Assembly: GCA_945903645.1 (NCBI GenBank)
Contig: CAMDOM010000008.1
Coordinates: 1 to 64,000 of the forward strand
DNA from: Chryseobacterium gleum
GTDB lineage: Bacteria > Bacteroidota > Bacteroidia > UBA10329
Direction of reading: 5' to 3'
Length of the DNA: 64,000 nt
Below the pieces are notes generated by a model. It did not search any database. It was not told where the DNA came from and was given only the letters and a program-made list of their open reading frames with translations. How positions within the stretch are numbered: the first letter of the stretch is position 1; every line of letters starts with the position of its first letter. This document shows positions 4,226 to 64,000 of the stretch, piece by piece. Made by a program: the position numbers and the translations under genes.

Positions 4226-4300
4226 AGGACTACCTGTAACTCGATTGTTCGTGGATTGTTCATGCAAAGCTATTTCAAAAGCAAACTGGTTAGGCTATGA

Positions 4301-5275: not shown

Positions 5276-5310
5276 TTTCTTTTTGGTTTTTAACGGAAGC
5301 AATAAGTTTC

Positions 5311-6636: not shown

Positions 6637-8265
6637 ATGCCAAAAGGAATTTACAACGTACCCGCCCCGAAGAACGAACCCGTTCTTTCTTACGCGCCAG
6701 GAAGTGCAGAAAAAGCCACGCTTAAAACGACATTAGCCGAAATGCGTTCGACAGAAATTGATATTCCAATGCACATTGGGGGTAAGGAAGTGCGGACAGG
6801 TAAGCTTATTCGTATTGCACCGCCTCACGAATTTGCGCATACGCTGGGTCATTTTCATCGTGGCGACCACTCGCATGTGGAACTTGCAATAAACGCTGCC
6901 TTGGCTGCAAAAGAATCGTGGGCCAATCTTGGTTGGGAGCATCGCGCTAGTATCTTTCTAAAAGCAGCAGATTTATTGGCTGGCCCATATCGGGCAAAAA
7001 TGAATGCGGCTACAATGTTGGCGCAAAGTAAAAATGTCTACCAAGCAGAAATTGATGCGGTATGTGAGTTTGCCGATTTTTTGCGGTTCAACGTGCAATA
7101 CATGACGGATATTTATCGTCAACAGCCAGAATCGCCCGCAAATACATGGAACAGACTTGAGCAACGCCCTTTGGAGGGTTTTGTGTTTGCCTTAACGCCA
7201 TTCAACTTTACTTCCATCGCTGGAAATTTACCTTCTGCACCAGCACTAATGGGTAATACGTGCGTTTGGAAACCTGCTGATACCCAAATTTACTCCGCTC
7301 AGATAATTATGGAGATTTTCAAAGAAGCAGGTTTGCCTGATGGCGTTATAAATCTTGTGTTTGTGAGTGGACCAGTGGCAGGCGATGTCATTTTCAGACA
7401 TCCTGATTTTGCCGGAATACATTTTACGGGTTCAACAGGAGTGTTCCAGAACATTTGGCGCACAATTGGAGAAAATATACAGAACTACAAAAGCTACCCG
7501 CGTGTAGTTGGCGAAACAGGAGGGAAGGATTTTGTAATTGCCCACCATTCTGCGATATCAAAGCAAGTGAGCACAGCGCTTTGCAGAGGCGCGTTTGAAT
7601 TTCAAGGGCAAAAATGTTCGGCTGCTTCACGCGCCTACATATCCAGCAATCTTTGGCCTAAAGTAAAAAGTGAATTACTGGCCGATTTGGCATCCTTTAA
7701 AATGGGTTCACCCGAAGATTTTCGGAACTTTATCAACGCTGTGATTGACGAAAAAGCGTTTGACCGCATTGCGTCTTATATTGACCGTGCTAAAGCGGAT
7801 GGCCAACAAATTATAGCAGGTGGAAACTATGATAAATCGAAAGGATATTTTATTGAACCTACGGTAATTGTGGTCGATAATCCGAAGTATGTAACCATGT
7901 GCGAAGAAATATTCGGCCCAGTGCTTACTATCTATGTGTATGAAGAAGCCAAGTTTGAAGAGACTTTAGAACTTGTAGATACCACATCGCCTTACGCACT
8001 TACAGGCGCAATTTTGGCACAAGACCGCTATGCCATAGAATTGGCAACCAAGAAATTGTCTAATGCAGCAGGCAATTTCTATATAAACGATAAGCCAACA
8101 GGCGCTGTGGTTGGGCAGCAACCTTTTGGCGGAGCACGCGGGTCGGGAACCAACGATAAAGCAGGCTCAGCCATCAATTTAATGCGCTGGGTTAGTCCCC
8201 GAACAATAAAGGAAACCTTTGTTACACCAACGGATTATAGATATCCTTTTCTAAAAGAAGCATAG
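6637..8265 (+). CDS. pruA: 1-pyrroline-5-carboxylate (L-glutamate gamma-semialdehyde) dehydrogenase
   Basis: 542 residues, the usual length of the stand-alone eukaryote-like P5C dehydrogenase found in Bacteroidota. It oxidises glutamate-semialdehyde to glutamate with NAD+, the second step of proline catabolism, in the cytosol. Visible aldehyde-dehydrogenase features are ALTPFNFTSIAGN, the GETGGKD segment with the general-base Glu (about residue 292), and FQGQKCSAASR with the nucleophilic Cys (about 327), followed by CEEIFGPVL and QQPFGGARGSGTNDK near the end. The N-terminal IYNVPAPKNEPV is typical of this subfamily. No proline dehydrogenase gene lies beside it. Confidence 0.95.
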   Translation: MPKGIYNVPAPKNEPVLSYAPGSAEKATLKTTLAEMRSTEIDIPMHIGGKEVRTGKLIRIAPPHEFAHTLGHFHRGDHSHVELAINAALAAKESWANLGWEHRASIFLKAADLLAGPYRAKMNAATMLAQSKNVYQAEIDAVCEFADFLRFNVQYMTDIYRQQPESPANTWNRLEQRPLEGFVFALTPFNFTSIAGNLPSAPALMGNTCVWKPADTQIYSAQIIMEIFKEAGLPDGVINLVFVSGPVAGDVIFRHPDFAGIHFTGSTGVFQNIWRTIGENIQNYKSYPRVVGETGGKDFVIAHHSAISKQVSTALCRGAFEFQGQKCSAASRAYISSNLWPKVKSELLADLASFKMGSPEDFRNFINAVIDEKAFDRIASYIDRAKADGQQIIAGGNYDKSKGYFIEPTVIVVDNPKYVTMCEEIFGPVLTIYVYEEAKFEETLELVDTTSPYALTGAILAQDRYAIELATKKLSNAAGNFYINDKPTGAVVGQQPFGGARGSGTNDKAGSAINLMRWVSPRTIKETFVTPTDYRYPFLKEA

Positions 8266-8345
8266 TTTTCTGTTAACAGTCATTGGTTCATTAATCGCTT
8301 GCAAACCATAGCTACCGCTAAATCACATTTCTAAATTTACGGTCC

Positions 8346-8663
8346 ATGAATGGAATTGTTGGCGCTTTTGAAACAATAAAACCTGTGCTTCGCAATAAAT
8401 ATGCGATAAGCGGTTTTGTGTTCTTCATTTGGGTCGGTTTTATAGACGAGAACAACATTATAGAGCAAGTAAAATCGCGTATAAAACTCTCGGAAGTGAA
8501 CAGCGAGCGTGAGTTTTATCTAACGGAAACAATGCAAAGTGTGGAAGATTTGAAGCTTCTTCAAAATGACAGCGAATTGCTGGAGAAATTCGCTCGCGAG
8601 AAATACCTCATGAAGAAAGACAATGAGGAGATTTTTGTTTTCACTGTGGAAGATATCGAGTGA
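8346..8663 (+). CDS. Septum formation initiator, DivIC/FtsB-like
   Basis: 105 residues with one membrane segment (about 19-33, ISGFVFFIWVGFI) and then a charged helical region likely to form a coiled coil, ending with the typical FAREKYLMKKDNEEIFVF segment of Bacteroidota DivIC. It belongs to the FtsB-FtsL-FtsQ divisome subcomplex at the inner membrane. The gene overlaps the next one by four bases (GTGA), so translation is probably coupled. Confidence 0.85.
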   Translation: MNGIVGAFETIKPVLRNKYAISGFVFFIWVGFIDENNIIEQVKSRIKLSEVNSEREFYLTETMQSVEDLKLLQNDSELLEKFAREKYLMKKDNEEIFVFTVEDIE

Positions 8664-9586
8664 GTAAGTTTCAGCTTCTTCGCGAATTATGTGCTATACA
8701 TGCTCCATCTGGAGATGAGTCTGCTCTCACTTCTTTTTTACTGAATTACATTCAAGCCAATTCTCCCAAATGGGCAGTGCAGCCTCAAGTAATTGCTGGT
8801 GGTTTATTTCAAGAGAATATCGTTTTGGTCTTTGGGTCAAAGCCTCGAACCGCCATTTTTGCTCATATAGATAGCATTGGCTTCACGGTTCGATATAATT
8901 ACGAACTTGTAAAGATTGGTGGGCCAGTTTTGGAGGATGGAATTGCGTTGGTTGGGAAGGATAGTCAAGGAGACATTGAATGCACTTTAACAGTTGATCC
9001 GCATAGCGATGCGCCTGGTTATGCGTTCAATCGCGTTATAGATAGAGGCACCAACCTAACTTTTAAGCCCGATTTCCGAGAAAAGCATTCGTCCGTGCAA
9101 TGCTGTTATATAGATAATCGTTTGGGAGTATGGAATGCCCTGCAAGTGGCAGAAACATTAGAGGAAGGAATTATTGTGTTTGGCACAAGAGAGGAGCATG
9201 GAGGCGGTTCAATCAGTTTTCTAGCGAAATATATTTTCGAAACCTATGGCGTGCATCAAGCGCTCATTTCGGACATAACTTGGATTACGCATGGTGTTCG
9301 ACCAGGAGAGGGTGTGGTTGTTTCAATGCGCGATAAAGGACTTCCGAGACGTAGCTACTTAAATCGAATTATTGGTGAAGCAACCAAAAGTGGCATACCG
9401 TTTCAATTGGAAGTCGAGGGCTCGGGCGGAAGTGATGGTATTGAATTGCAAAGTAGCTCATATCCTTGGGAATGGGTTTTTATTGGAGCAGCTGAAAATC
9501 ATGTGCATTCACCAGATGAATTGGTACACAAGGATGATATTAAGGCGATGGTTCAGCTTTATATCCATTTAATGAAAGTACTTTAA
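8660..9586 (+). CDS. M42/M20-type zinc aminopeptidase-like protein
   Basis: 308 residues with a GTG start at 8660 that overlaps the divIC stop. It has the order of metal and catalytic motifs of the M42/M28/M20 clan: IHAPSGDE at the N-terminus, IFAHIDSIG (first metal His), CYIDNRLG (bridging Asp, about 153), GTREEHGGG (catalytic Glu pair, about 175) and NHVHSPDE (distal His). It is close in length to M42 glutamyl aminopeptidases. The first motif reads HID rather than the HxDE-like sequence of many members. Cytosolic peptide degradation is the likely role; the substrate is unknown. Confidence 0.75.
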   Translation: MSKFQLLRELCAIHAPSGDESALTSFLLNYIQANSPKWAVQPQVIAGGLFQENIVLVFGSKPRTAIFAHIDSIGFTVRYNYELVKIGGPVLEDGIALVGKDSQGDIECTLTVDPHSDAPGYAFNRVIDRGTNLTFKPDFREKHSSVQCCYIDNRLGVWNALQVAETLEEGIIVFGTREEHGGGSISFLAKYIFETYGVHQALISDITWITHGVRPGEGVVVSMRDKGLPRRSYLNRIIGEATKSGIPFQLEVEGSGGSDGIELQSSSYPWEWVFIGAAENHVHSPDELVHKDDIKAMVQLYIHLMKVL

Positions 9587-30722: not shown

Positions 30723-31517
30723 ATGAAGTTTACAGGTAACTTGCTTAAAATGCGCACGCAGCTTGATTCCCCCATTCAGTATAGTCTAGCTATGGAACAA
30801 GGCATACTTTCTATGACGGGGCTACTGGGTAAGCAAATAAGTATTCATTTCTCGGGGCGAATTAACTGTATAGCCTGTGGCAAACGAACCAACAAGGCTT
30901 TTGGTCAAGGGTTTTGCTATCCGTGCTTTGCCACTGCTCCAGAAAACAGTGATTGCATTCTTCGACCCGAATTGTGCCAAGGCCATTTAGGATTGGGCCG
31001 CGATGTGGCTTGGGAATTCGAAAACCATGTGCAACCACATGTGGTGTACTTGGCCATTAGCAGTGGACTCAAAGTGGGTATAACACGCGCCACGCAACTC
31101 CCTACCCGCTGGATAGACCAAGGAGCGCAACAAGCAATAGTGCTTGCCGAAGTGCCCCATCGCAGACTTGCAGGCGATATAGAAGTTGCGCTAAAAGCCC
31201 ATTACAGCGACAAAACCAATTGGCAGCAAATGCTTAAAGGACAAGTTACTCAAGATGATTTGGTAGCCAAGAAAACCGAAGCCGCGAGCATTCTTTCAAG
31301 TGAATTTGCGCCCTATATCGCTTCCTCAAACGCTATTTTAACATTACATTATCCTGGACTAGATACCCCATCTAAGATAACGAGCCTCAAATTAGACAAG
31401 CAGCCAGTTATTGAAGGCATCCTCACTGGCATAAAAGCACAGTACCTTATCTTAGACAACACCAATGTGATAAACGTGCGTAGCCACGCGGGCTATTACG
31501 TTAGTATAGAAGCATAG
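30723..31517 (+). CDS. DUF2797-family protein with zinc knuckle
   Basis: 264 residues. Two Cys pairs (Cys49/Cys52 in INCIACGK and Cys65/Cys68 in FCYPCF) form a likely zinc-binding knuckle, followed by CQGHLGLGRD and HVVYLAISSGLKVGITRATQLPTRWIDQGA, a GIY-YIG-like beta-alpha segment characteristic of DUF2797. Function is unknown; a nucleic-acid role is plausible given the fold resemblance. It starts 54 bases after the H1-like gene on the same strand. Confidence 0.85.
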   Translation: MKFTGNLLKMRTQLDSPIQYSLAMEQGILSMTGLLGKQISIHFSGRINCIACGKRTNKAFGQGFCYPCFATAPENSDCILRPELCQGHLGLGRDVAWEFENHVQPHVVYLAISSGLKVGITRATQLPTRWIDQGAQQAIVLAEVPHRRLAGDIEVALKAHYSDKTNWQQMLKGQVTQDDLVAKKTEAASILSSEFAPYIASSNAILTLHYPGLDTPSKITSLKLDKQPVIEGILTGIKAQYLILDNTNVINVRSHAGYYVSIEA

Positions 31518-31641: not shown

Positions 31642-34600
31642 ATGAAGAGTACCCTGCTCTCGCTGTTTACGGTTATTTCACTTTCGTTAATAGGCTTCAA
31701 GGCCATAGGACAAATAGCTATTTGCCAAGACCTTACACTTCAATTAGACGCCAATGGCGAAGTATCCTTGCCCGACCCTTTGGTATCCTTACCAGAGGTA
31801 GATGTGCAAGTAGGCCCTTCGAATGGTGCACCCGAAAACAACAACTTTTGGCAGTCTTTCATTCCTACTACCAATGGTCCAATTGACCGCATTGTTGTAA
31901 ACGCAGAGCAATTGAATGCTCCTACAGGTCTGGTGCTTAGCATTTACAGTGGAGAAGGTATTGGGGGAGCATTACTTCATTCGCAAGCCATTGCATCCTT
32001 GATTGTGGGCGATAACTCTCTAAGCCTAAATACCTCACTAGATTTAGTTGCTGGAGTGCAATACACCTTTCAGCTTACGAGTGCAACTGGAACCTTTTAT
32101 CTACAACGTAATAATACAAACGTGTATGCAGATGGCCTAAGTAATCTTGGCGCAAACTTCGATTTGATTTTTAGCACCTTTATGATCACGCCTCCATCTG
32201 TAGATAATGGAAGCAGTGCTGCTGCCGGTATTGCATCCATCACCATTTCTCAAAACACCTTCAACTGCGATGATTTAGGCTCTGTAAACGTTATAGTAAC
32301 AGTAACCGACAAAAATGGCAATACTGACGAATGTGTAGCTGTAATAACTATTGAAGACAACATTGCACCTGAAGCGCTTTGTGTAGCAGGCCCAATTACT
32401 TTGCCGTTGGATGCAAATGGAGACGCCACGCTTTTAGTGCTTGATGCGGATAATGGCAGCAGTGATAATTGCAACTTCACTTCCACCTTATCGCAAAGCG
32501 TTTTTAATTGTTCGGCTGTAGGTCCAAACACCATTACCCTATTTATTGAAGATGATGCCAATAACATAGCAGCATGCAACGTGCAGGTGGATGTGGTTGA
32601 TACTAGTGCTCCAGATGCATTGTGCCAAAATATTGTGTTGCCTTTAGATGCCAATGGACTGGCCAGCATCGTGGTTGGGGATATTAATCTAGGCTCTACA
32701 GATGCCTGTGGAATTGCCACCTATTTCCTTGATATTACAGACTTTGATTGCTCTAACTTAGGAAGTAATCCAGTTATTCTTTCAATAGAGGACGTTAATG
32801 GCAATGCATCTTCATGTCCATCGGAAGTGGAAGTGGTGGATAACATAATCCCAACCATTACATGCAATGCACTTATCACTGTGTGCGCAACTAGTGCTTT
32901 GGGTGCAACAGTAACCTTTAATGCTCCAGTAGGCGATGATAATTGCGATTTCGTAATTACCCAAACAGACGGAACAGGTTTAGCTTCGGGCAGCACGTTT
33001 CCATTGGGCACCACTACTCTATCTTATAGTATTGAAGATGCTGCGGGCAATACCAACCAATGTTCCTTCGATATTACAGTAGACGCAGTGCCAGTTGCTG
33101 GTTTCAACTTCTCACCGGCATGTGTGGGCGATGCTATGTTCTTTACCAGTACATCTACCATTGCTAACGGGTATTCTATTGTTTCGTGGTCGTGGGACAT
33201 GGGTGATGGAAGCGCACCTATCGGACAGGTTAATCCATTGTATCAGTTTCCACTAGCTGGCGATTATAACGTTACGCTTACCGTTACTTCTGCAAATGGC
33301 TGCGAGGATGTCATTACACAAACCGTAACTGTAACCCCATCTCCTGTTGCTAGTTTCACTGTAGCTCCTGTTTGCCTAGGTGCATCAACCTCATTTGTAA
33401 ACACTACTTCTATTGATGTTTCCTATCTCGGTGGATTGAGCTATACATGGAATTTTGGAGACGGAACTGCCTCAAGCAATGATGAAAATCCTGTTCATAC
33501 CTATGCCACTTCTGGTACGTTTACAGCAACCTTAAATGTGATTTCAGATGATGGTTGTACTAATCAAATTCAATTGCCAGCATTGGTAAGTGCCTTGCCA
33601 CAGGCTCAATTTGTGGCGAGCGAAGAATGTGAAGGTGTTACAACCGAATTTACAGACCTAAGCTTTGGCACTGGGCTTACCTACGATTGGCAGTTTGGCG
33701 ATGGGAATAGCGATACCGACCAAAACCCTGATTATACCTACAACGCAAGCGGCAGTTATTTGGCTACACTAACTGTGACAGGACTAGGCGACTGTCAATC
33801 AAGCATAACGAATAGCGTTACTGTGCTTGAATTGCCAATAGTAGATTTTACATTCACGCCAAACTGCGAAGGGCTATCTGTAGCTTTTGATAATAACTCC
33901 GATGCTGGAACATACGGTTGGGATTTTAATGATAACAGCAGCTCCATTCTTAGCAGCCCGAGCCATGTGTTTGTTGCCGATGGATTCTATGATGTTACAC
34001 TTACAGTGCTATCATCAGACGCTTGTTCTGCGAGCCTTACCCAATCTGTAGAAATATACCGAAATCCAGATTTTACACTTACGCCAACTGATGTGCTTTG
34101 CTTTGGTGAAAACACAGGAAGCATAAACATTTTGGCAGTTTTACCATCAACAATGCCTTGGCAAGTTAGTCTTAATGGGGCACCTTCTATTACAGATCAA
34201 GACAACTTTACTAATTTGGAAGCAGGTGCGTATTCCATTGCAATTGTTGATGCCAATGGATGCACCAATACGGAAACAGTTTCAATAGCACAACCAAGCG
34301 CGCCATTAGCATTAAGCAGCCCAACACGTGCAGACTTACAATGCAACGAAGATAATTCGGGCAGCATTGCCATAGTTGCTTCGGGCGGCACAGCACCATA
34401 CACTTATGCGCTGAGTGGTGGTAGTTTTCAGTCTTTCGGGCTATTCCAAAACTTAGCTGCTGACGATTATTATTTCGAGGTTATTGATGCTAATGGCTGC
34501 GCTATTTCCACAGGATTGTTCGCTATTAATGAGCCTTCTGCGTTAGAACTCGACTTGGTTTCGTTCTCCAATTTGCTTTGCAATGGCGACAATTCGGGCG

Positions 34601-36450
34601 AGTTGATAGTTGCAGCTTCTGGAGGAACTGCCCCGTATGCGTTTAGCAATAATGGTAGCGCATTCGGTTCATCACCCTCATTTAATGGCCTTGCTGCAGG
34701 CGATAACCTTGTCGTAGTTGAAGATGCTAATGGATGCGAACTATCTCTTTCAATTGAATTAACGGAACCTGGAATATTAATGGCTTCTGTAGTAAATAGC
34801 GAAGGCGCTCTTTGCTTTGATCAAGCCACAGGAACCGTTTTGGTATCGGCAGCGGCAGGCACAGCCCCCTATCACTACAGTATTGACGGCACGAACTTCC
34901 AAGTTTCAGGCGCATTCCAAGGTTTAGGAGCTGGCACCTACACCATTACAGCGCAAGATGCTAATGGCTGCCTCGACCCTGTGGAGCATATCGTTTTAGA
35001 ACCAAGCGCGTTAAGCATGGAAACAACCACATCGCCAGTGCTTTGCTTTGGCGAAAGCACGGGCACAGCAACTATTAGCACAATAGGTGGAACTGCTCCT
35101 TATTCCTTTTCATTTGACGAAGGCGATACCTTCATCAATCAAAATGATGTTAGTGGATTACAAGCGGGGAACTATATTCTAGTTGTACGTGATGAAAACG
35201 GGTGCACCGCATCTCAAGGAATCCAAATCTCTGAACCTGCCACCGTGCTTTCCGTAGATGGCGATGTTACTGGAGTATTGTGTTTGGGAGAAGCATCTGG
35301 CGCAATTCAATTGCTTGCGGATGGAGGCACTCCAACCTACATATACTCTAGCAATGGCTCAGTCTTCCAAACATCGGGTCTGCTCAGCGGATTTACGGCA
35401 GGAAGTCAAACTTTTTACGCTCAAGATTTGAATGGCTGTGTGGCAGCAATTACAGTTGAATTTACAGAACCTTCCTCGGTAGCAGAAATAACCAATACTC
35501 TCGTGAGCAATCCTGGTTGTGGACTTTCTCTAGATGGTGCTATCACTCTAATTGTAAGTGGCGGAACACCGGGATACACTTATTCTTCCAATGGCATCGA
35601 CTTTCAGAGCAGTGGCCTGCTTACTGGCTTGGGCGTAGGCGAATACACCGTAGTAGTGAAGGACGCCAATGGTTGTCAAATTACCCAAGACTTTTCGTTG
35701 GTTTCTGACCCTCCGCTTTTTGTAGTGGTAAACAACGTTGTAGGTGTTGAATGTGCTGGTTCGTTTACCGGAGCACTAGAACTTTCTGGCACAGGCGGAA
35801 CTCCAGAGTATAGCTACTCTCTAAGTGGAAGTGCTCCTCAAATTTCTGGTTCTTATAGCGAACTCACCAACGGAGTTTATGTTGTCACGTTGACTGACAA
35901 TAGTGGCTGCACTGCGACTGCCGAGGTAGAAGTGCCGTTCACCTTCCAAGTTCCTTTGGTAGACTTTAACACGGTAGTTTCTGGCGAAGCCGTTTTGTTT
36001 GATAACACTTCCGAATTTGGCGATACCTATCTGTGGGATTTTGGAGATGGCACCACTAGCACTGACGAGAATCCAGTGCATATTTATGCTTCACCTGGGT
36101 ATTATACCGTTACCCTTTCCGTAACCAATGGATGTGGTACACGCACTCGCACTCGTGCCATCAACACTATTATGATTGGAATTGAAGATGCAGCATCCAC
36201 TCAGTTTAGTGTGTTTCCAAATCCAACTGCAGGAATACTAAATATTACCAACACAAGCGACATTTCTGGAAGTATTGGAATAGAAATCACTTCTATTTCT
36301 GGTCAGCGGGTTATGCAAATGAGCCAAAATGGAGTTTTTGCCAACGGTAAAATAACAATTGATGCCACGGCCTTAGGTCAAGGCATGTACTACCTTACTG
36401 TTCAAACCTCCGAAGGTCGTTCAGTGATGCGTTTCAACGTAATACGATAA
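31642..36450 (+). CDS. Large adhesin: HYR/PKD domains, eight SprB repeats, T9SS type A tail
   Basis: 1602 residues. A signal peptide (1-23, ending GQ) leads into a lectin-like or jelly-roll region (about 40-190), HYR/cadherin-like repeats (about 190-480, e.g. DNIAPEALC, DTSAPDALC), four PKD domains (about 483-807, WNFGDGTASSNDENP), eight SprB repeats of about 77 residues (about 814-1431; pattern LCxGxxxG ... GGTAPYxYS ... LxAGxYxxxVxDANGC), another PKD (about 1436-1515) and a Por/T9SS type A signal (SVFPNPTAG to the end). This is the architecture of surface adhesins moved by the gliding machinery, as with SprB of Flavobacterium johnsoniae. It is followed after 6 bases by another T9SS protein gene and then PorP/SprF. 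Confidence 0.93.
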   Translation: MKSTLLSLFTVISLSLIGFKAIGQIAICQDLTLQLDANGEVSLPDPLVSLPEVDVQVGPSNGAPENNNFWQSFIPTTNGPIDRIVVNAEQLNAPTGLVLSIYSGEGIGGALLHSQAIASLIVGDNSLSLNTSLDLVAGVQYTFQLTSATGTFYLQRNNTNVYADGLSNLGANFDLIFSTFMITPPSVDNGSSAAAGIASITISQNTFNCDDLGSVNVIVTVTDKNGNTDECVAVITIEDNIAPEALCVAGPITLPLDANGDATLLVLDADNGSSDNCNFTSTLSQSVFNCSAVGPNTITLFIEDDANNIAACNVQVDVVDTSAPDALCQNIVLPLDANGLASIVVGDINLGSTDACGIATYFLDITDFDCSNLGSNPVILSIEDVNGNASSCPSEVEVVDNIIPTITCNALITVCATSALGATVTFNAPVGDDNCDFVITQTDGTGLASGSTFPLGTTTLSYSIEDAAGNTNQCSFDITVDAVPVAGFNFSPACVGDAMFFTSTSTIANGYSIVSWSWDMGDGSAPIGQVNPLYQFPLAGDYNVTLTVTSANGCEDVITQTVTVTPSPVASFTVAPVCLGASTSFVNTTSIDVSYLGGLSYTWNFGDGTASSNDENPVHTYATSGTFTATLNVISDDGCTNQIQLPALVSALPQAQFVASEECEGVTTEFTDLSFGTGLTYDWQFGDGNSDTDQNPDYTYNASGSYLATLTVTGLGDCQSSITNSVTVLELPIVDFTFTPNCEGLSVAFDNNSDAGTYGWDFNDNSSSILSSPSHVFVADGFYDVTLTVLSSDACSASLTQSVEIYRNPDFTLTPTDVLCFGENTGSINILAVLPSTMPWQVSLNGAPSITDQDNFTNLEAGAYSIAIVDANGCTNTETVSIAQPSAPLALSSPTRADLQCNEDNSGSIAIVASGGTAPYTYALSGGSFQSFGLFQNLAADDYYFEVIDANGCAISTGLFAINEPSALELDLVSFSNLLCNGDNSGELIVAASGGTAPYAFSNNGSAFGSSPSFNGLAAGDNLVVVEDANGCELSLSIELTEPGILMASVVNSEGALCFDQATGTVLVSAAAGTAPYHYSIDGTNFQVSGAFQGLGAGTYTITAQDANGCLDPVEHIVLEPSALSMETTTSPVLCFGESTGTATISTIGGTAPYSFSFDEGDTFINQNDVSGLQAGNYILVVRDENGCTASQGIQISEPATVLSVDGDVTGVLCLGEASGAIQLLADGGTPTYIYSSNGSVFQTSGLLSGFTAGSQTFYAQDLNGCVAAITVEFTEPSSVAEITNTLVSNPGCGLSLDGAITLIVSGGTPGYTYSSNGIDFQSSGLLTGLGVGEYTVVVKDANGCQITQDFSLVSDPPLFVVVNNVVGVECAGSFTGALELSGTGGTPEYSYSLSGSAPQISGSYSELTNGVYVVTLTDNSGCTATAEVEVPFTFQVPLVDFNTVVSGEAVLFDNTSEFGDTYLWDFGDGTTSTDENPVHIYASPGYYTVTLSVTNGCGTRTRTRAINTIMIGIEDAASTQFSVFPNPTAGILNITNTSDISGSIGIEITSISGQRVMQMSQNGVFANGKITIDATALGQGMYYLTVQTSEGRSVMRFNVIR

Positions 36451-36456
36451 TTAAAA

Positions 36457-38496
36457 ATGAGAATGAGGAAGTTCACTAAACTCGCACTGGCTCTAGCTTT
36501 TTGCCCTTTATTGGGAGTAGCAAATACAGCCGATTTTACCCCTTTGGCTGTCTGTCAGGGTTCTCAAAGCATTTTCTCCAGTACTTCGGTAACCTCTGGT
36601 GGCGAATCGATTGTGCTTTGGGAATGGGACTTGGATGCTGATGGTCAGTTTGATAATGCAACTGGCCCTGTTGTGTCGTATCAATTCGACAATGCGGGTA
36701 CCTTTCAAGTTGGACTACGCATCACAACTGACTTAGGCACCCAAGTGGCTGCCTACAAATTGATAACTGTCAATCCAGTTCCAATGGCTGCTTTCTCCGT
36801 TGCCGATGTGTGTAAAGGAAGCAATTCTATGATAGTAAGTTCGTCTATTGTAGCTTCTGGCAGCATAGCATCTTGGGAATGGGATCTGGACAACGATGGG
36901 CAATATGACGATGCCACGGGAGAATCTGTTTCTCACAACTTTGGCAATGCTGGTAGTTATGTAGTTGGTTTGCGTGTAACTAGCGATTTGGGATGTCAAA
37001 GCACTTCAACCGGTGGTGCCGTTGTAGACCCATCGCCTACTGCTAATCTCACAGCGCAAAATGTTTGTCTTGGCGATGAAACAACCCTAAATGGAATTGC
37101 TTCAGTAAGTTCAGGACTCATTGCAAGTTATGAATGGGAACTCAATGGCAACAACTTATTTGATGATGCAACTGGTGTTCAAATTAATAATCAGTTTATT
37201 AGCGATGGTAATTACCAAATAGGATTGCAGGTAACTACGGACCAAGGTTGTGTGGCAGACACCTTCAAATTAGTAACAATCGCACCATATCCCTACATCA
37301 ACTTTAGCTTCAACACTGCATGTCAGGGCGAGGATGTTCAGTTCAATAACTTCACTGGTAATGTGGTTGGGACCATTGGTTACACTTGGACTTTCGGCAC
37401 TTTTGGCGTAACTTCTGCCGTAGCACCATCTTTCTTATTTGCGAATAGTGGAACATTCCCAATCACATTGGTTGGACTTACTTCCTTTGGTTGCAGCGCT
37501 TCATTAACGCAAGAAATCACAGTTTCTCCATCACCAACGGCCGAATTTTCATTCTCAGAAGTTTGTGTGGGTGCGCAAACTTCATTTGCAAATACCAGTA
37601 CGCCCAATGGCAGCACCATTCAAAGCTTCCTATGGAACTTTGACGATTCGAATGTGAGTGCCTCAGTAAATCCATTTCATAACTTCCTTTTCCCTGGTAG
37701 TTATGATGTGTCTCTGATTGCCTACACAACAGCAGGATGCCGTGATACGGCAACTCATGTAGTAAGTGTTTGGGAAAACCCCACACCTCAAATCACTGCA
37801 TCTGGACCAGTTGCATTTTGCCAAGGTGGAAACGTGCTTCTTACTGTAAACCCTCCTGGATCAATAACTCTATGGAGCACTGGAGATTTGACTCAGGGCA
37901 TAACCGCATCACAGGCTGGAACTTATACCGCTGCTATAGTGGATGGTAAAGGATGTCGAGGCGAAACAGAAATTGTGATTACTGTGTACGCGCTTCCAAC
38001 TCTTATAGCAAGCAACGATACCATTGTGAGTCTTGGCGAAGATGTTCCGCTTTGGGTAGCTGGAGCTAACTCTTACTCTTGGGCACCAGAAACGTTTTTA
38101 GACTTTCCGTTGAGTGCAACTCCAATTAGCTCTCCAACAAGTGATTTAATCTATACAGTTACTGGTGAGGATTTGAATGGCTGTACCGATACCGAAGACG
38201 TGAGCGTAAGAGTAACCACAGACTACAATCTGAAACCCGTTAATCTGTTTACACCAAATGGCGATGGTTCAAACGAGCGTTTTTATGTCGGCAACATTGA
38301 CCAGTATACCGATTGTGGAGTAACGGTCTTTAACCGTTACGGCAACCAAGTGTTTTCTGAAAAACCGTACCTAAACAACTGGACAGGAACTTTCAACAAT
38401 TCGCCATTGCCAGAAGGTTCGTACTACTACATCATAGATTGTGATGGAAGACCAGAGCGATTTGATGGTTCCGTAACCATCTTAAGAGATAAATAA
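36457..38496 (+). CDS. PKD-domain surface protein with T9SS type B (gliding-associated) tail
   Basis: 679 residues with a signal peptide (1-23). Five PKD-like domains follow in tandem (from about residue 28 to 435). The first two contain Asp-rich loops (DLDADGQFDNATG, DLDNDGQYDDATG) that look like calcium sites. Two Ig-like modules (about 440-585) come next. The C-terminus (about 590-679: VNLFTPNGDGSNERFYV ... VTVFNRYGNQVF ... LPEGSYYYII) is a type B T9SS sorting domain (CHU_C/TIGR04131). Type B cargo generally depends on a PorP/SprF-type protein for secretion, and such a gene is immediately downstream. An external, possibly self-assembling or adhesive role is likely. Confidence 0.93.
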   Translation: MRMRKFTKLALALAFCPLLGVANTADFTPLAVCQGSQSIFSSTSVTSGGESIVLWEWDLDADGQFDNATGPVVSYQFDNAGTFQVGLRITTDLGTQVAAYKLITVNPVPMAAFSVADVCKGSNSMIVSSSIVASGSIASWEWDLDNDGQYDDATGESVSHNFGNAGSYVVGLRVTSDLGCQSTSTGGAVVDPSPTANLTAQNVCLGDETTLNGIASVSSGLIASYEWELNGNNLFDDATGVQINNQFISDGNYQIGLQVTTDQGCVADTFKLVTIAPYPYINFSFNTACQGEDVQFNNFTGNVVGTIGYTWTFGTFGVTSAVAPSFLFANSGTFPITLVGLTSFGCSASLTQEITVSPSPTAEFSFSEVCVGAQTSFANTSTPNGSTIQSFLWNFDDSNVSASVNPFHNFLFPGSYDVSLIAYTTAGCRDTATHVVSVWENPTPQITASGPVAFCQGGNVLLTVNPPGSITLWSTGDLTQGITASQAGTYTAAIVDGKGCRGETEIVITVYALPTLIASNDTIVSLGEDVPLWVAGANSYSWAPETFLDFPLSATPISSPTSDLIYTVTGEDLNGCTDTEDVSVRVTTDYNLKPVNLFTPNGDGSNERFYVGNIDQYTDCGVTVFNRYGNQVFSEKPYLNNWTGTFNNSPLPEGSYYYIIDCDGRPERFDGSVTILRDK

Positions 38497-38537
38497 AACA
38501 GCGCATAGCCCAGTTGCCAACAGCTAAAAAGAAAACT

Positions 38538-39974
38538 ATGAGAACACTATTTACAAACATATTGCTATTGTTTGGAGGAATGTTATTCTTCTCGAAGGCT
38601 ACCCTAGCACAACAACTTCCGATGTCAAGCTTGTACTCTCAAAACAGGTTTATGATAAACCCCGCTAGCGCGGGCTACGAAGATGGTTTGGTGGCTCACT
38701 TAAACTTTCGCAACCAATGGGCTGGAGTAAAAGGCTCACCAACTACAGGATGGTTGAGTTTGCACAGCCCTATTGGAAAGAATACCAATATTGGCGGTAT
38801 CGCGTCTTATGACAAAACAGATTTTATCTCAATAGTAAACATTCAATTGGCGTATGCACACAACATCAAGCTAACCAAAGAGCATTTTCTTTCGCTTGGA
38901 TTGTCTGCTGGTGTAAATAGCGTTTCATTCAATTTGGATGAAGCCGTGGTAGAAAATGCCTCAGATGTCATTCTTGCCAATGGCAATGTTGCGAGCACCA
39001 CAGTGGCCTTAGATTTCGGATTGCGTTACCATTGGAAAGGACTTGAAGTAGGCGCTGCTGCTCCGAACATTATCGGAAATGTAGGCCAGCTTAAGGGCAA
39101 AGACAATACGTTTAAGTACGATATCAATCGGCATTACAGGTTTTATGCGAGCTACGAAATGATGATTAAAAACATCTTTATTGCTCCATACGGTATGGTT
39201 CGTTTTCTTCCCAACACACCAGTATCATGGGATGTTGCACTAAAAGCTGGCTACAAACGCATAGTTTGGGCTTCCTTTATGTGGAGGGCAGAAACTGGCC
39301 CGGTAGCTGGAGTTGGCTTTAAGGTGGCTGATAAATTTAGTTTCGCTTATGCTTATGATTTTACACTCAATGGTTTAGATAACAGCCCATGGAGCAACGA
39401 AATCATGATTTCTTTCCACTTGGATGGCTTTAAGAAGAAGCTCAAAAAGATAGAGGAACGCATGGATGTGATGGAGCAAGGCAATTTGGCACTTGCATCG
39501 CGCATGGACAGCCTTCAAATGGCTCTAAGTGCTAAAATGGATTCATTGTCAAATGATGTAAACGTGATTCGCGAACAAGACTTAGTGCGTATTCAAGAAG
39601 ATATTGACCGTCTCACCAAAGAGATTGAGGATATGGGCAAATCGAAGGTTGATACTGGTGACTTGAATGGATTGCTTCAACGCATTACACCAGTTTTGGA
39701 TTCTGAAGGTAATTTGAGTATGACTAGCGAGAATCTGGAAAGTGGATACTACGTAGTAATCGAATCGTTCAGGAGTTTAGATAACGCGAATCGTGGAGTG
39801 GAAATCTGGAAGAAGAAAAACCGTGAGGCCATCATTGTTTATGACGAGGAGCGCAAATGGTATTATGTATACTCACAGCGTTTTGGAACTGATAAAGAAG
39901 CCCGTAAAGAAATGCGTGCTACTCGAAAAGCAGATGTGCCAGATGCTTGGGTGCATAAATACAGAGTACTGTAA
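38538..39974 (+). CDS. PorP/SprF-family T9SS protein with coiled coil and SPOR-like C-terminus
   Basis: 478 residues from the ATG at 38538; the frame also opens at a TTG at 38514, but only the ATG is followed directly by a normal signal peptide. Residues about 27-310 are the PorP/SprF outer-membrane beta-barrel (MSSLYSQNRFMINPASAGY, LNFRNQWAGVKGSPTTGWLSLH). Then come a charged coiled coil (about 310-390, KKLKKIEERMDVMEQ) and a C-terminal domain (about 405-478: GYYVVIESF, ANRGVEIWKKK, WYYVYSQRFGTDKEARKE) that resembles a SPOR peptidoglycan-binding fold. Ordinary PorP/SprF proteins stop after the barrel at about 300-340 residues, so this is a fusion. It is the third gene of the adhesin operon. 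Confidence 0.88.
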   Translation: MRTLFTNILLLFGGMLFFSKATLAQQLPMSSLYSQNRFMINPASAGYEDGLVAHLNFRNQWAGVKGSPTTGWLSLHSPIGKNTNIGGIASYDKTDFISIVNIQLAYAHNIKLTKEHFLSLGLSAGVNSVSFNLDEAVVENASDVILANGNVASTTVALDFGLRYHWKGLEVGAAAPNIIGNVGQLKGKDNTFKYDINRHYRFYASYEMMIKNIFIAPYGMVRFLPNTPVSWDVALKAGYKRIVWASFMWRAETGPVAGVGFKVADKFSFAYAYDFTLNGLDNSPWSNEIMISFHLDGFKKKLKKIEERMDVMEQGNLALASRMDSLQMALSAKMDSLSNDVNVIREQDLVRIQEDIDRLTKEIEDMGKSKVDTGDLNGLLQRITPVLDSEGNLSMTSENLESGYYVVIESFRSLDNANRGVEIWKKKNREAIIVYDEERKWYYVYSQRFGTDKEARKEMRATRKADVPDAWVHKYRVL

Positions 39975-40709: not shown

Positions 40710-41474
40710 TTGGTACAACCTAAGAAACACCTCGGTCAGCATTTCCTTCGGGACGAGTGCATTGCCAGCGATATTGCCAATGCACTTACTGGTCATGGCG
40801 GCTACAATAACGTTTTAGAAGTTGGTCCTGGAACAGGTGTTCTGACCAAGTATTTAATGGAGCGCAAGGATATTACACTACATGCGGTAGAGATGGATCC
40901 TGAAAGCGTGGATTATTTAAGGGCGCACTATCCCCAGATTTCTGGAAGGTTGCAGTCTGGAGACTTTCTTCGCCTGAATTTGGATGCTATTGGCGATGGT
41001 CCGCTAGCGATTATCGGTAATTTCCCTTACAACATCAGTTCACAGATTTTTTTTAAAGTATTAGAACACCGCGACCATATACCCGAAGTGGTGGGAATGT
41101 TGCAAAAGGAAGTGGCAGAGCGGCTTGCTGCACCTCCTGGGTCTAAGACCTATGGCATATTGAGCGTGCTGTTGCAAGCTTGGTACGATGTGGAATATCT
41201 GTTTTCTGTTCCACCTGCGGTATTCTATCCGCCACCTAAGGTTGATTCGGGAGTAATACGCGTAAAACGTAATACCCGTGCATCGCTAGGTTGTGATGAG
41301 AAAGTATTTGTTCGAGTGGTGAAAGCTGGTTTTGGGCAACGAAGAAAGACGCTACGGAATGCATTGGGAAGCATTCAATTTACCACACCGCCTGATGCAC
41401 ATTTGCTCACTCTACGTGCCGAACGACTTAGTGTAGAGAACTTTATTTCAATTGCGAAGTGCGTGGGAAGTTGA
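40710..41474 (+). CDS. rsmA: 16S rRNA (adenine-N6)-dimethyltransferase RsmA/KsgA
   Basis: 254 residues with a TTG start at 40710; no in-frame ATG exists upstream, and the protein begins at the family's usual KKHLGQHFL. It dimethylates the two adjacent adenines in helix 45 of 16S rRNA late in 30S assembly. Visible are the SAM-binding loop EVGPGTGVLTKYL, the catalytic IGNFPYNISSQI (NLPY-type motif with Phe), and the C-terminal GFGQRRKTLRNAL. Follows DUF4286. Confidence 0.95.
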   Translation: MVQPKKHLGQHFLRDECIASDIANALTGHGGYNNVLEVGPGTGVLTKYLMERKDITLHAVEMDPESVDYLRAHYPQISGRLQSGDFLRLNLDAIGDGPLAIIGNFPYNISSQIFFKVLEHRDHIPEVVGMLQKEVAERLAAPPGSKTYGILSVLLQAWYDVEYLFSVPPAVFYPPPKVDSGVIRVKRNTRASLGCDEKVFVRVVKAGFGQRRKTLRNALGSIQFTTPPDAHLLTLRAERLSVENFISIAKCVGS

Positions 41475-59904: not shown

Positions 59905-62900
59905 CTAGTCGACAAATAATACTTTCTTCACTTCTTCAAGAGAAATTTTATTTCCATCCAATTGCACAACAATTTTGCTGTTTTCAAAACCAATTCCTTT
60001 TAGAAACAACATTTCAGCATGGGCGTCCATTTGGGTGCGATAATGGCCAACTGACAAATCAAACGAAGCAACACTGGTAGCAACTCCTTGCTCAGCGCTC
60101 AATGCCTCTGTCACAGATTCGGAAAGGTTAATTTCGGCCAAGGCCACAGCTATGTGATAATCTACCCCTTTGCGTTTTCGCAGCGCATCGCGATTGAATG
60201 CTTGGGGTTGATATTCCTCGCGAGCATTTGAGGGTTTCATGGTGGCCATTACATCTTGCGAACGCTGGAATTGCTCCAGTTTTGACGATGCATTAGCATC
60301 AGTCATTTTGGCATTTTCCAATCTTTTTTGAACTGCAATGCGACCTTTGTCTTCGGCTGCCATTCGCTGAATTAACAGACGTTGTTCATTATCTTCAATT
60401 GCTTCAAAACTGGGCTTACGGTTGGAATAATTGCGCAATGCAGCAGGACGACCAGCAGTATTTGCTGCAACTGGGCGAGAAGAAACGGTTTCCGCTACTG
60501 GGACTGGGGCGATTTTTGGCTCTTCAATTTCGGACTGAGGCGCAACAGCCACTTCAGGAGTTTGCACCACCTGCTGTTGTTGCTCTTTGGCTTTGCGCTC
60601 TGCTTCTAACTTAGCCACTGATTCTAAGAAAACTTGAGTGGCGGTTTTGGTAGTAGTTGTGTCTACATCTGCTGTTGTTACTGGCTTTTGTTCCGTAACA
60701 ACCGTACGTTCTACTTTAGATGTTGGTGTCGCTACTTCCACGTTTGGCTCCTCTTTCACCACCTCAACTTCTTTCACAACAGCAACGGATTCTACCACCA
60801 TTTCCAACGGTTTTACCTCAGTTTTCACTTCTAAAGCTACTTCCTTTTCTGGTTCTGATACCTGCGCTGGCGCTGTCACGCTATCCTGCTTTTCCACTTG
60901 AGGAGCGGCCACCTGCACCACTTGTTTTCCTTTAGTAACAGCCTGGCGCTCGGCTTGACGCAATTCTTCTGCAAGGGCTTGGTCATGCAATCCTAGTGCT
61001 TCGCGGTCCTGTTTGATTCGATCGGCCAATTTCGCTTCTTCTACTTTTGCAATGGCTTGATGCTCATCTACAATACGTCTATCTTCATCAATTTTAGACT
61101 CCTTTACGATGATGCTACTTTCCACTTTTACCGCTTGCGGTTCCAATGCTTTAGTTTGCACCATTTCGGGCATTGATTTTAGGGTGTAATCTTTATTTGC
61201 AACTGTTTTCTTATCGTTAGCTATGGCTTGCTCGGCCTTTTGCATCTCTGCCAAATAAACATTCGGGTTGGCATCGCTTCTCAGTTTTTCACTTAACGCA
61301 CCGGTATCAGCAGCGGCACTAGCTTCCTTTTTCTTTGTTTCTACAGCCAACTCAAGCTCTTTCACTTTGGCGGTATCACCCGAAGTTTTAGCCTGAATCA
61401 GGGCTTCATCCATGGCTTTTCTCTCGGCAAATGATTTCGCTTCGGTAACTTTAATGCGTTGGGTAGCCTCCTCATCGGCCTTCAACCTCACCTGTTCTTC
61501 CTTTTGCTTACGCTGCGCTTCAATTCGGGCAATGGTTTGCTTGAATATTTCAGCATCCGTTAGGGTTTCAGAGGAATCTTGCTCCGCAGCAACAGGCACA
61601 ATTGCTTCGGTTTTAATCGCCTCACGCTCTTTGAATATGAGTAACTTGGACTCTATCTCGGCCAACGAATCTAAGCGCGCACGCTCCGTAGCTAAAATCG
61701 CTTGTTTCTTCTCTTTTACCAAAGCCTCCTCCTGTTCTTGTTTCTCAACAGCTAAGCGCAATTCAACACGGGCTTTTTCCAAATCGCGCTCAAAAGCTTC
61801 TTGTTCTTTTTGCTGTTTTTCAATCTCAGCTTTGTGTTCTAACTCAGCAAGCTCCTTTTCTTTAATGTTCAAAACGCTCAACTCCGCAGCTTTTCGTGCA
61901 TCCTCTTCGGCCTGTTTCACCTCTGCAAGATTGGCAACGGTATCTACCGATTGTGCTTTCACGTCTTGCGCCACCAATTTGTTCATACGTTCTTCTTCAG
62001 CCATTCGCTTGGCCTCAGCTAAATCTTTGGCGTCTTGTTCACTTTGCTGCTTTGCTGCCTTCATGTTTAGCAAGGCTTGCTGCTGTTCTAATAGCAATCT
62101 AGTTTCTTCGAATGCTGCAGATTGCTGGGCTTTTTCAAGGTTTGCCTTTTCTTCTAATGCTAGGGCAGCCAACTCTAGTTCTTGCACTTTCAGCAACGAA
62201 TCCATATTACTAAGATTTTGCTGCGCTTTCAGTTTGAACGCTTCAGTTTGTAGCTGACGTTCTTGATCTTCTCTTAGTGCTTGTACTTGTGCAATTCTTA
62301 GTTCTTCTTGGTAGGCCGCAACGGCTTCCATTGAGTCGTTGGCCAAACGAGCTTTTTCGGCAAGCTGCTTTTGAAGAACCAAATCTACCATTTCTTTGGA
62401 ACGCTTTAATGAATCCATTCGTGCTAAAATGGACGCTTTAGCAAGCCAATCTATATTTTGTTGTTCTGCTTTTTGAAGTTCCTCTGCGGCTTTTCGGGCG
62501 GTAACTAGTTCAGTTTGGGCAATAGCATCTAAGCGAGCTTTTTCGGCAGCATTAGCCTGTTCTTCAGCAAGAATGCGTCCTTCTTCGGCTTTCTTAGCTG
62601 CAACTAGTTCAGTTTGGGCAATAGCATCTAAGCGCGCTTGTTCGGTAGCATTAGCCTGTTCTTCGGCAAGAATGCGTTCTTCTTCGGCTTTCTTAGCTGC
62701 AACCAGTTCAGTTTGGGCAATAGCATCTAAGCTAGCTTTTTCGGCAGCATTAGCCTGTTCTTCGGCAAGAATGCGTCCTTCTTCGGCTTTTTTAGCTTCC
62801 ACTAGTTCAGTTTGGGCAATCGCATCTACGCGAGCTTTTTCGGCAGCATTAGCCTGTTCTTCAGCAAGAATGCGTCCTTCTTCGGTTTTTTTAGCTTCAA

Positions 62901-64000
62901 CTAGTTGAGTTTGGGCAATAGCATCTAAGCGCACTTGCTCCGCTGCTTGGGCTTTTTGCTCGGTAAGAATACGCTCTTCTTCGGCTTTCTTAGCCGCGAC
63001 TAGTTCAGTTTGGTTAATAGAATCTAATCGCGCTTGCTCCGCTGCTTGGGCTTTTTGCTCGGCAAGAATGCGTTCTTCTTCGGATTTCTTGGCTTGTTGC
63101 TCTGCTAAGAGCTTTTCTTCTACCGCTTTCTTTACGGCTAACTCTTCTGTCTTCATCTGTTTTTCCTTGGCTGCAATCTTATCTGACACTTGCGTGGTAA
63201 TTGCAGGCATTTTCTCTGTCATATCGTCCAACGCCAACGATTTTGAAACTATCATAGTATCCAATTTACCTGCCTTATCGAAATAATTGGTTAATTGAAC
63301 AGCACCTTCACTCTCAGACTTGTTGTAAGTGATATTTTGTTTTAAGGTTTTAGAGGGGTCTTGCTTCGGAACATCCAAGGAAAAACGGAAACCTTTTGCA
63401 CCGCGCGGTGCGACATCCAACGTATAACCAACTTTTGGAGGGAGTATAAACATGTATTTACCCGTTACCGCATCGGAGCGATATTTACCAACCACCTCGT
63501 TAGTTTGCGGGTCGATTACATTGGCTTCCATATAGTTATAAAGTGAATCAGTCTTATCCTCAAAGCTTCCATCAATCACGGTTAATTCAACCAATTCTGG
63601 GTCGAAGAAAAGTGTTTTAAATACTTTGACCATTCCTTCTGGTGTTTGCCTTGTGGATGTAAAAAAAGCCGACTCATTGTCAGGATCAGATAAATAAAGG
63701 AAGTCTTCAAAGGGCGAATTAATAGGATGTTGGAGGTTTACAGGCACCGACCACTTCTTAGTGTTGTCATCAAAGCGCGAACTATACACATCTAAACCGC
63801 CCATAGTATTGTGCCCATTTGAAGCGAAATAGAGCGTATTGTTAACTTCATCAAGAAAAGCAAAGTCTTCGTCATACTTGGAGTTAATCACATCTGGCAA
63901 ATGCTCTGCCAAAGACCATTCGCCATTGGGCAACTTCTTGACCCTATATAAATCTTTGCCATTAGCTCCATCTTCACCATAGCTCGCATATACCAGTGCT
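59905..64000 (-). CDS. PD40 propeller / regulatory-domain / long coiled-coil protein with SPOR-like end (5' end beyond window)
   Basis: At least 1364 residues; the frame is open to the right edge, so the start and signal peptide are missing. The N-terminal visible part (about 1-150) has PD40/WD40-like beta-propeller motifs (FAFLDEVNNTLYFASNGHNTMGGLDVY, ESAFFTSTR). A carboxypeptidase-regulatory-like sandwich follows (about 140-235, VIDPQTNEVVGKYRSDAVTGKYMFILPPKVGY). Most of the rest (about 270-1210) is a Lys/Ala/Glu-rich helical region, including six 33-residue repeats (62500-63093). The last 90 residues (YHIAVALAEINLS ... SVGHYRTQMDAHAEMLFLKGIGFENSKIVV ... ISLEEVK) look like a SPOR domain. 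PD40 plus regulatory domain recalls PorE/OmpA-type T9SS proteins, but no OmpA domain follows. Confidence 0.8.
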   Translation of the reverse strand, partial: ALVYASYGEDGANGKDLYRVKKLPNGEWSLAEHLPDVINSKYDEDFAFLDEVNNTLYFASNGHNTMGGLDVYSSRFDDNTKKWSVPVNLQHPINSPFEDFLYLSDPDNESAFFTSTRQTPEGMVKVFKTLFFDPELVELTVIDGSFEDKTDSLYNYMEANVIDPQTNEVVGKYRSDAVTGKYMFILPPKVGYTLDVAPRGAKGFRFSLDVPKQDPSKTLKQNITYNKSESEGAVQLTNYFDKAGKLDTMIVSKSLALDDMTEKMPAITTQVSDKIAAKEKQMKTEELAVKKAVEEKLLAEQQAKKSEEERILAEQKAQAAEQARLDSINQTELVAAKKAEEERILTEQKAQAAEQVRLDAIAQTQLVEAKKTEEGRILAEEQANAAEKARVDAIAQTELVEAKKAEEGRILAEEQANAAEKASLDAIAQTELVAAKKAEEERILAEEQANATEQARLDAIAQTELVAAKKAEEGRILAEEQANAAEKARLDAIAQTELVTARKAAEELQKAEQQNIDWLAKASILARMDSLKRSKEMVDLVLQKQLAEKARLANDSMEAVAAYQEELRIAQVQALREDQERQLQTEAFKLKAQQNLSNMDSLLKVQELELAALALEEKANLEKAQQSAAFEETRLLLEQQQALLNMKAAKQQSEQDAKDLAEAKRMAEEERMNKLVAQDVKAQSVDTVANLAEVKQAEEDARKAAELSVLNIKEKELAELEHKAEIEKQQKEQEAFERDLEKARVELRLAVEKQEQEEALVKEKKQAILATERARLDSLAEIESKLLIFKEREAIKTEAIVPVAAEQDSSETLTDAEIFKQTIARIEAQRKQKEEQVRLKADEEATQRIKVTEAKSFAERKAMDEALIQAKTSGDTAKVKELELAVETKKKEASAAADTGALSEKLRSDANPNVYLAEMQKAEQAIANDKKTVANKDYTLKSMPEMVQTKALEPQAVKVESSIIVKESKIDEDRRIVDEHQAIAKVEEAKLADRIKQDREALGLHDQALAEELRQAERQAVTKGKQVVQVAAPQVEKQDSVTAPAQVSEPEKEVALEVKTEVKPLEMVVESVAVVKEVEVVKEEPNVEVATPTSKVERTVVTEQKPVTTADVDTTTTKTATQVFLESVAKLEAERKAKEQQQQVVQTPEVAVAPQSEIEEPKIAPVPVAETVSSRPVAANTAGRPAALRNYSNRKPSFEAIEDNEQRLLIQRMAAEDKGRIAVQKRLENAKMTDANASSKLEQFQRSQDVMATMKPSNAREEYQPQAFNRDALRKRKGVDYHIAVALAEINLSESVTEALSAEQGVATSVASFDLSVGHYRTQMDAHAEMLFLKGIGFENSKIVVQLDGNKISLEEVKKVLFVD
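62500..63093 (-). repeat. Six tandem 99-bp repeats (33 residues) in the coiled-coil protein gene
   Basis: Six contiguous units of 33 codons: AKKxEExRILAEExANAAEK followed by xRxDAIAQTELVx, differing at a few positions per unit. 33 residues equals three 11-residue (hendecad) turns rather than heptads, suggesting a continuous helix with slight right-handed or straight coiled-coil twist. High nucleotide identity implies recent expansion and possible length variation between strains. Confidence 0.85.

Follow-up and report, generated by a model that had tools for sequence, protein, structure and literature searches.

Whether type B cargo of the type IX secretion system (T9SS) stays put on the cell surface or glides is an open question, which has recently been tied to the PorP/SprF shuttle and to PorE. 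In Porphyromonas gingivalis, the peptidoglycan-binding protein PorE forms a bridge to PorP-PG1035 (PMC9143113), and in Flavobacterium johnsoniae, operons with a PorE homologue were proposed to serve static cargo and those without it gliding cargo (PMC12618676). An operon in the 64,000-nucleotide stretch of Chryseobacterium gleum contig CAMDOM010000008.1 analyzed here (hereafter, the window) raises the question of whether the anchor can be part of the shuttle. A sequence-only reading had described it as two secreted proteins, one with a type A and one with a type B tail, followed by a PorP/SprF protein ending in a coiled coil and a SPOR-like domain that could tether the shuttle to peptidoglycan. 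Our results indicate that the SPOR domain is genuine and that it probably constitutes an anchor built into the shuttle itself, an arrangement that recurs across many Bacteroidota families beyond the standard model organisms.

A PorP/SprF protein that ends in a SPOR domain

The product of the third gene (P0001) matched PorP_SprF (PF11751) over residues 23–293 (E 4e-54; 184.5 bits, cut-off 22.3) as well as TIGR03519 (179.7 bits, cut-off 90.55). In Foldseek comparisons, its predicted barrel matched FadL and PorV of the T9SS translocon (8gl6_F and 6h3i_F); 8bys, which we take to be OmpM of Negativicutes, was also among the fold matches. Beyond the barrel profile, P0001 continues for 185 residues, the median in 116 untailed PorPs being 16.

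This extension ends in a true SPOR domain with a ribonucleoprotein (RNP)-type fold, since PF05036 was matched above its cut-off, the AlphaFold2 (AF2) model has the corresponding fold, and Foldseek led to CwlC and RlpA. In particular, PF05036 covered residues 402–463 (E 1.1e-5; 26–29.5 bits, cut-off 21), with E 1.5e-6 for the domain alone, and 32 of 38 aligned tails matched it at E ≤ 0.01. Prediction of the tail together with 38 related tails gave a mean predicted local distance difference test score (pLDDT) of 92.6 and the order strand-helix-strand-strand-helix-strand. The top three Foldseek matches were SPOR domains of CwlC (1x60) and RlpA (6i09/6i05), with a probability of 1.00 and a target template-modeling (TM) score of 0.73–0.78; their E-values were modest (0.025–0.07), as expected for so small a domain, and the second match was RlpA in complex with denuded glycan. 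A profile built from the tails and run against the PDB recovered Bacillus subtilis CwlC at E 1e-8 and, weakly, FtsN. The SPOR-type fold that the sequence-only reading had suspected was thus confirmed by both profile search and structure prediction, and the coiled coil that it had placed after the barrel was likewise found, as two predicted helices.

By arithmetic alone, this stalk would measure about 10 nm if both helices (67 residues) were fully helical, which would be enough to reach from the outer membrane to the cell wall. Among 61 SPOR-tailed relatives, the linker ranged from 79 to 266 residues (median 119), and the stalk was less well conserved than the SPOR domain. Some linkers are long and contain TPR (L050). 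A likeness of the stalk to Lpp was not significant (best E 0.048); all that we retained from it is the notion of a coiled coil long enough to span the distance from outer membrane to wall.

With regard to the gene itself, the upstream TTG start of the listed open reading frame (38514) was dropped, as the ATG at 38538 yields a signal peptide common to the relatives. The core-type PorP of this genome is encoded separately, on contig C1, and lies upstream of what by sequence reads as gldKLMN; the gene for P0001 is not located with gldKLMN, which ruled it out as the core PorP of a porP-gldKLMN arrangement, and the window PorP is an accessory paralogue. Domain profiles detected in P0001 none of the PorE domains sought (TPR, propeller, CarboxypepD_reg, OmpA). 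P0001 is not a PorE, and its likeness to PorE would be functional only.

Recurrence of the fusion and exchange of SPOR with OmpA

A search of 59 related genomes, extended to a set of genome contigs, yielded 185 distinct PorP genes, of which 116 were untailed, 61 SPOR-tailed, 4 OmpA-tailed and 4 had other tails; because the contigs were searched specifically for SPOR-tailed PorPs, these proportions should not be read as natural frequencies. SPOR-tailed PorPs were present in at least 16 of the 48 sampled family codes, with records labelled Fluviicola, Fulvivirga, Crocinitomix, Cyclobacteriaceae and Lentimicrobiaceae, together with many metagenome-assembled genomes of Flavobacteriales. Cultured carriers of the fusion include Fulvivirga lutimaris KCTC 42720 (L098) and Fulvivirga sp. 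M361 (L104). Most of them formed one broad supported group in the barrel tree, together with a few untailed and OmpA-tailed members, and a SPOR group of 10 rows adjoined it; the window PorP grouped with its genus-mates (support 100). The SPOR-tailed PorP is hence a widespread architecture in Bacteroidota that forms deep PorP clades, so that the fusion read from the window alone is real but not peculiar to this genome. Chance fusion or mis-assembly was ruled out by the same architecture in 61 distinct proteins, including one of the same genus at 57% overall identity. The tail seems to be rare in the best-sampled family (f49), judging by PorP open frames of mostly ~300–340 residues among the matches listed in a phylum-wide scan of the four best candidates per genome. 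The open literature that we searched yielded nothing relevant that links SPOR to type IX secretion or to SprF, nor anything on a SPOR domain in Cytophaga hutchinsonii; within that literature, the fusion is an undescribed, though widespread, variant of a known system.

The genomic setting recurs as well. Among loci with enough flanking sequence, to which all neighbor counts are restricted, a type B cargo gene lay directly upstream of 46 of 49 SPOR-tailed PorPs, as it does in the window, in line with the proposed pairing of PorP/SprF with type B cargo. Full-length homologues of the type B cargo of the window (P0003; 45–59% identity) precede SPOR-tailed PorPs in the genus and beyond, and a gene of the same type as gene 1 opens the operon in the same genus and in related families.

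SPOR and OmpA interchange at the same functional position in two protein contexts. One of them is the PorP itself: locus L129 has the gene order of the window (type A, type B of 680 residues, PorP), and its PorP tail is an OmpA domain (E 2e-23). The 680-residue protein aligns colinearly with P0003 over 684 positions at 32% identity, and every one of its best matches is cargo of a SPOR-tailed PorP operon. Among proteins without a SPOR tail, the L129 barrel matches P0001 best. An Asp and an Arg of OmpA domains hold diaminopimelate; both of these peptidoglycan-site residues, as read from the sequences, are kept in three of the four OmpA tails. On the barrel tree, supported branches force at least three changes of the OmpA label. 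The other context is a PorE-like protein. Two untailed PorPs inside the SPOR clade (L138 and L091) are each directly followed by a PorE-like gene, with TPR and PD40, in which SPOR replaces OmpA. Both products align with OmpA-bearing PorE-like proteins over approximately residues 1–500, and their SPOR domains scored higher with the PorP-type SPOR profile than with the other-SPOR profiles of these genomes, the PorP-type profile having been built from more sequences.

Further arrangements were observed around related barrels. In the Bacteroidales loci L106 and L107, type B cargo, a PorE-like protein and PorP are followed by a small separate SPOR protein, whose SPOR carries the RVS motif of other Bacteroidota SPORs. 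In L156, L167 and L172, untailed and inside or near the SPOR clade, a protein of ~200–230 residues with TPR-like tandem repeats occupies the expected anchor position just downstream of PorP (as the second gene in L156). Relatives L023 and L060 keep the coiled coil only, and in L047 an extra 565-residue gene stands between the CHU cargo (2104–6099) and the SPOR-tailed PorP (7826–9334), unlike the usual order.

Role of the tail and rival explanations

Because SPOR and OmpA replace each other in both the PorP and the PorE-like context, the SPOR tail is most likely doing the job of PorE, that is, static cell-wall anchoring of the type B adhesin; we assign this reading a probability of about 0.62. 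The accessory PorP/SprF would take its cognate type B cargo, the product of gene 2, from the T9SS translocon and remain bound in the outer membrane. Its C-terminus, which we infer to face the periplasm from the barrel fold and the signal peptide, would bear the SPOR domain on the coiled-coil stalk and thereby hold the complex on peptidoglycan. A single chain would then play the part taken in other systems by two proteins, PorP and the separate lipoprotein PorE (TPR, propeller, OmpA), and the adhesin would be predicted to stay in place instead of moving with the gliding machinery. The swaps lend weight to the earlier idea of a SPOR tail in place of a separate OmpA-like anchor. The direct peptidoglycan tether suggested by the sequence-only reading stood in part: anchoring is probable, but the Gln and Arg that contact denuded glycan are missing in 61 of 61 tails, and the ligand would probably not be denuded septal glycan bound canonically.

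A SPOR tail that stands in for PorE would make a PorE neighbor unnecessary for tailed PorPs. A separate OmpA-domain neighbor adjoined 0 of 49 SPOR-tailed, 0 of 4 OmpA-tailed and 34 of 102 untailed PorPs; 32 of these 34 neighbors were immediately downstream, mostly with 600–900 residues, and the six that were scanned all had the PD40/TPR-OmpA composition of PorE. The raw Fisher p-value for this exclusion was 2e-7; it was withdrawn as a strong statistic, since the tail classes are clades and leave too few independent pairs. In terms of gene content, the pattern is consistent with replacement of PorE by the SPOR tail, without being decisive, and the domain swaps are the stronger evidence.

Several observations weigh against anchoring by the tail. 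The exclusion just described tracks clades, with three independent pairs on supported branches and a sign test that was not significant. Four more untailed PorPs of the SPOR clade lack both a PorE and a SPOR gene next to them. Furthermore, L110 and L111 combine a region matching the PorP-type SPOR profile with an OmpA domain in one protein, which would be odd if both did the same job; Pfam supports SPOR in L111 only, not in L110. Finally, the contact residues are at odds with known SPOR domains. Side chains of RlpA Q270, R302, R309 and R311 hold the denuded glycan, and the Gln is conserved in FtsN, DamX and DedD (PMC6895207, PMC7642682), being the one highly conserved polar contact, with the basic patch preserved in solved SPORs (PMC6895207). 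The strand 1 Gln position (RlpA Q270, FtsN Q251, DamX Q351) is Val or Ile in all 61 PorP-SPORs (V407 in P0001), and the strand 3 Arg position (RlpA R309, FtsN R285; Y443 in P0001) is never basic and is Tyr in 49 of 61.

The position of R311 (Y445 in P0001) is Tyr in 42 of the 61. Other SPORs of the same genomes have the Gln in 12 of 30 and Arg or Lys in 19 of 30 cases; the Gln is likewise missing from a second group of Bacteroidota SPORs, in which the Arg is retained. On the sheet face, with exposure judged from strand alternation and from alignment to RlpA and CwlC, PorP-SPORs display conserved aromatics (Y405, W/F/Y at 441, Y443, Y445 and W471). G403, Y405, F411 and W471 are near-invariant, W471 lying on strand 4, which is also the location of DamX W416.

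Given the absence of the Gln and Arg contacts from all 61 domains, canonical binding of septal denuded glycan is doubtful, and a denuded-glycan binding assay could fail to show binding even under a correct anchoring model. A canonical SPOR domain would bind amidase-made denuded glycan at the division site and so direct the adhesin to the septum or new poles. The clear fold and the glycan-bound RlpA as second Foldseek match would fit it, and F411 and the conserved W471, on the strand that also bears DamX W416, are compatible with sugar stacking (PMC6895207); nevertheless, we regard it as quite improbable, as the key Gln and the basic patch, highly conserved and preserved, respectively, in solved SPORs (PMC6895207), are missing throughout. 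The PorP-SPOR may therefore bind the wall by another route or bind a protein. In the latter case, its aromatic sheet face would dock the shuttle onto a component of the T9SS or of the envelope, e.g., the GldK/GldN ring or some other periplasmic protein, with no peptidoglycan contact. That the Gln and basic contacts are lost in 61 of 61, and that Y405, Y443, Y445 and W471 form a family-specific conserved set, would agree with such docking, as would the PorP-PorK interaction reported in P. gingivalis (PMC9143113) and the co-occurrence of a PorP-type SPOR match and OmpA in L110 and L111. We consider it unlikely, however, because replacement of SPOR by OmpA in two protein contexts is simplest with the same kind of target, and the OmpA domain of PorE binds peptidoglycan. 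Hardly credible is a tail that acts as a structural spacer or assembly aid (e.g., a trimerizing coiled coil) capped by a vestigial SPOR without ligand: although conservation is lower in the stalk than in the domain, and L023 and L060 retain only the coiled coil, the SPOR domain, with its near-invariant residues, is conserved in 61 diverse proteins despite the wide range of linker lengths, and vestigial domains would not be retained in this way.

The anchoring reading can tentatively be taken further. PorP-SPORs might constitute a SPOR class of their own whose ligand specificity is new, in which an aromatic face in place of the Gln/Arg groove binds stem-bearing peptidoglycan or another wall feature, so that adhesins could be pinned anywhere on the cell; repeated exchange of this module with OmpA in PorP and PorE would then amount to a modular code for 'static' versus 'gliding'. 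The residues point, in any case, to a class of SPOR domains that probably has a ligand other than the textbook one. The natural substitution of SPOR for OmpA, more than once, makes the model in which the shuttle decides the destination testable.

The operon and its known counterparts

The operon consists of three head-to-tail genes on the forward strand, with intergenic gaps of 6 and 41 bases (Table 1). The earlier gene calls and the assignment of the type A and type B tails proved correct. Gene 1 encodes 5 PKD domains, 8 SprB repeats and one HYR domain. No PorE-like anchor gene lies beside the operon, and a promoter and terminator scan of it returned fewer sites than shuffled sequence. The upstream neighbor (30723–31514) is a DUF2797 gene and, like the downstream genes, one of which (40710–41474) reads as an rRNA-methyltransferase-like protein, seems unrelated to the operon.

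Table 1. Coordinates of the operon, of its domains and of related loci with SPOR proteins.
Feature	Location	Strand	Evidence or remarks
Large T9SS type A cargo, 1602 residues; putative surface adhesin or filament protein (gene 1)	31642..36450	+	PKD, SprB repeats, HYR, type A tail
Type A T9SS sorting domain (Por_Secre_tail), gene 1	36211..36426	+	PF18962 E 9.8e-16; TIGR04183 33.3 bits, cut-off 23
T9SS type B cargo, 679 residues (P0003, gene 2), 5 PKD domains and CHU_C tail	36457..38496	+	Domain profiles
Type B sorting domain, gene 2	38239..38481	+	CHU_C PF13585 E 1.1e-22; TIGR04131 E 1.3e-16, 60.5 bits, cut-off 35
PorP/SprF shuttle with coiled coil and SPOR, 478 residues (P0001, gene 3)	38538..39974	+	PF11751, TIGR03519, PF05036, all over cut-off
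FadL/PorV-like outer-membrane beta-barrel, residues 26–295	38613..39422	+	AF2 strands 51–295, pLDDT mostly >90; Foldseek
Helical coiled-coil stalk, residues 298–369	39429..39644	+	AF2 helices 298–340 and 346–369, pLDDT 55–83
Beta-hairpin just ahead of SPOR core, residues 380–399	39675..39734	+	AF2 strands 380–387 and 393–399, both models
SPOR domain, residues 402–475	39741..39962	+	PF05036; tail-model pLDDT 92.6; Foldseek; profile match to CwlC
PorE-like protein ending in SPOR, 661 residues	L138 6747-8729	-	
PorE-like protein ending in SPOR, 664 residues	L091 10906-12897	+	
Small stand-alone SPOR proteins, immediately downstream of PorP	L106 6289-6840; L107 6126-6686		
Proteins of 440–446 residues, PorP-type SPOR match and C-terminal OmpA	L110 9821-11143; L111 9803-11143		No PorP gene adjoining; Marinigracilibium, Mangrovivirga

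Elsewhere in the window, a further T9SS type A cargo gene (1895–4267, reverse strand) encodes a CotH kinase-like protein with a Por_Secre_tail match at the cut-off. A gene at 59905–63933 (reverse strand) extends beyond the window end (L271 406-5268) and encodes a very long PorE-like protein of 1620 residues, with weak N-terminal TPR and PD40 matches followed by hundreds of Ala/Glu/Lys-rich coiled-coil residues; its C-terminus gave no convincing Pfam match.

Compared with known systems, the window tail shares its fold and its strand and helix order with the SPOR domains of RlpA, CwlC, FtsN, DamX and DedD, but lacks the Gln/Arg glycan contacts and is linked by a coiled coil to an outer-membrane barrel. 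A SPOR domain is likewise fused to an outer-membrane secretion component in Legionella LspD (cited in PMC9239104); however, LspD is a type II secretin with an N-terminal SPOR and is not known to have a cargo-anchoring role, whereas the SPOR of the window is C-terminal. In the PorP-PorE-PG1035 system of P. gingivalis (PMC9143113), type B cargo on a PorP barrel is also tied to peptidoglycan through a peptidoglycan-binding domain, but this domain is of the OmpA type and resides in the separate lipoprotein PorE, whereas in the window a SPOR domain is part of the PorP chain. Similarly, F. johnsoniae Fjoh_3952, Fjoh_3951 and Fjoh_3950 (static type B adhesin, shuttle and PorE homologue; PMC12618676) combine cargo and cognate shuttle in one operon with proposed static anchoring; there, the anchor comes from a third gene that has no counterpart next to the window operon. 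As in the window, the gene for SprF of F. johnsoniae lies directly downstream of type B cargo, but according to the literature SprF serves the mobile SprB from an operon without a PorE-like gene. That SprF is not known to carry a C-terminal tail. A parallel in overall plan is OmpM of Negativicutes, a porin that unites a barrel, a coiled-coil stalk and a wall-binding SLH domain in one chain: the barrel-stalk-wall-domain plan is the same, but the terminal domain is SLH rather than SPOR and the barrel is a porin rather than a secretion shuttle.

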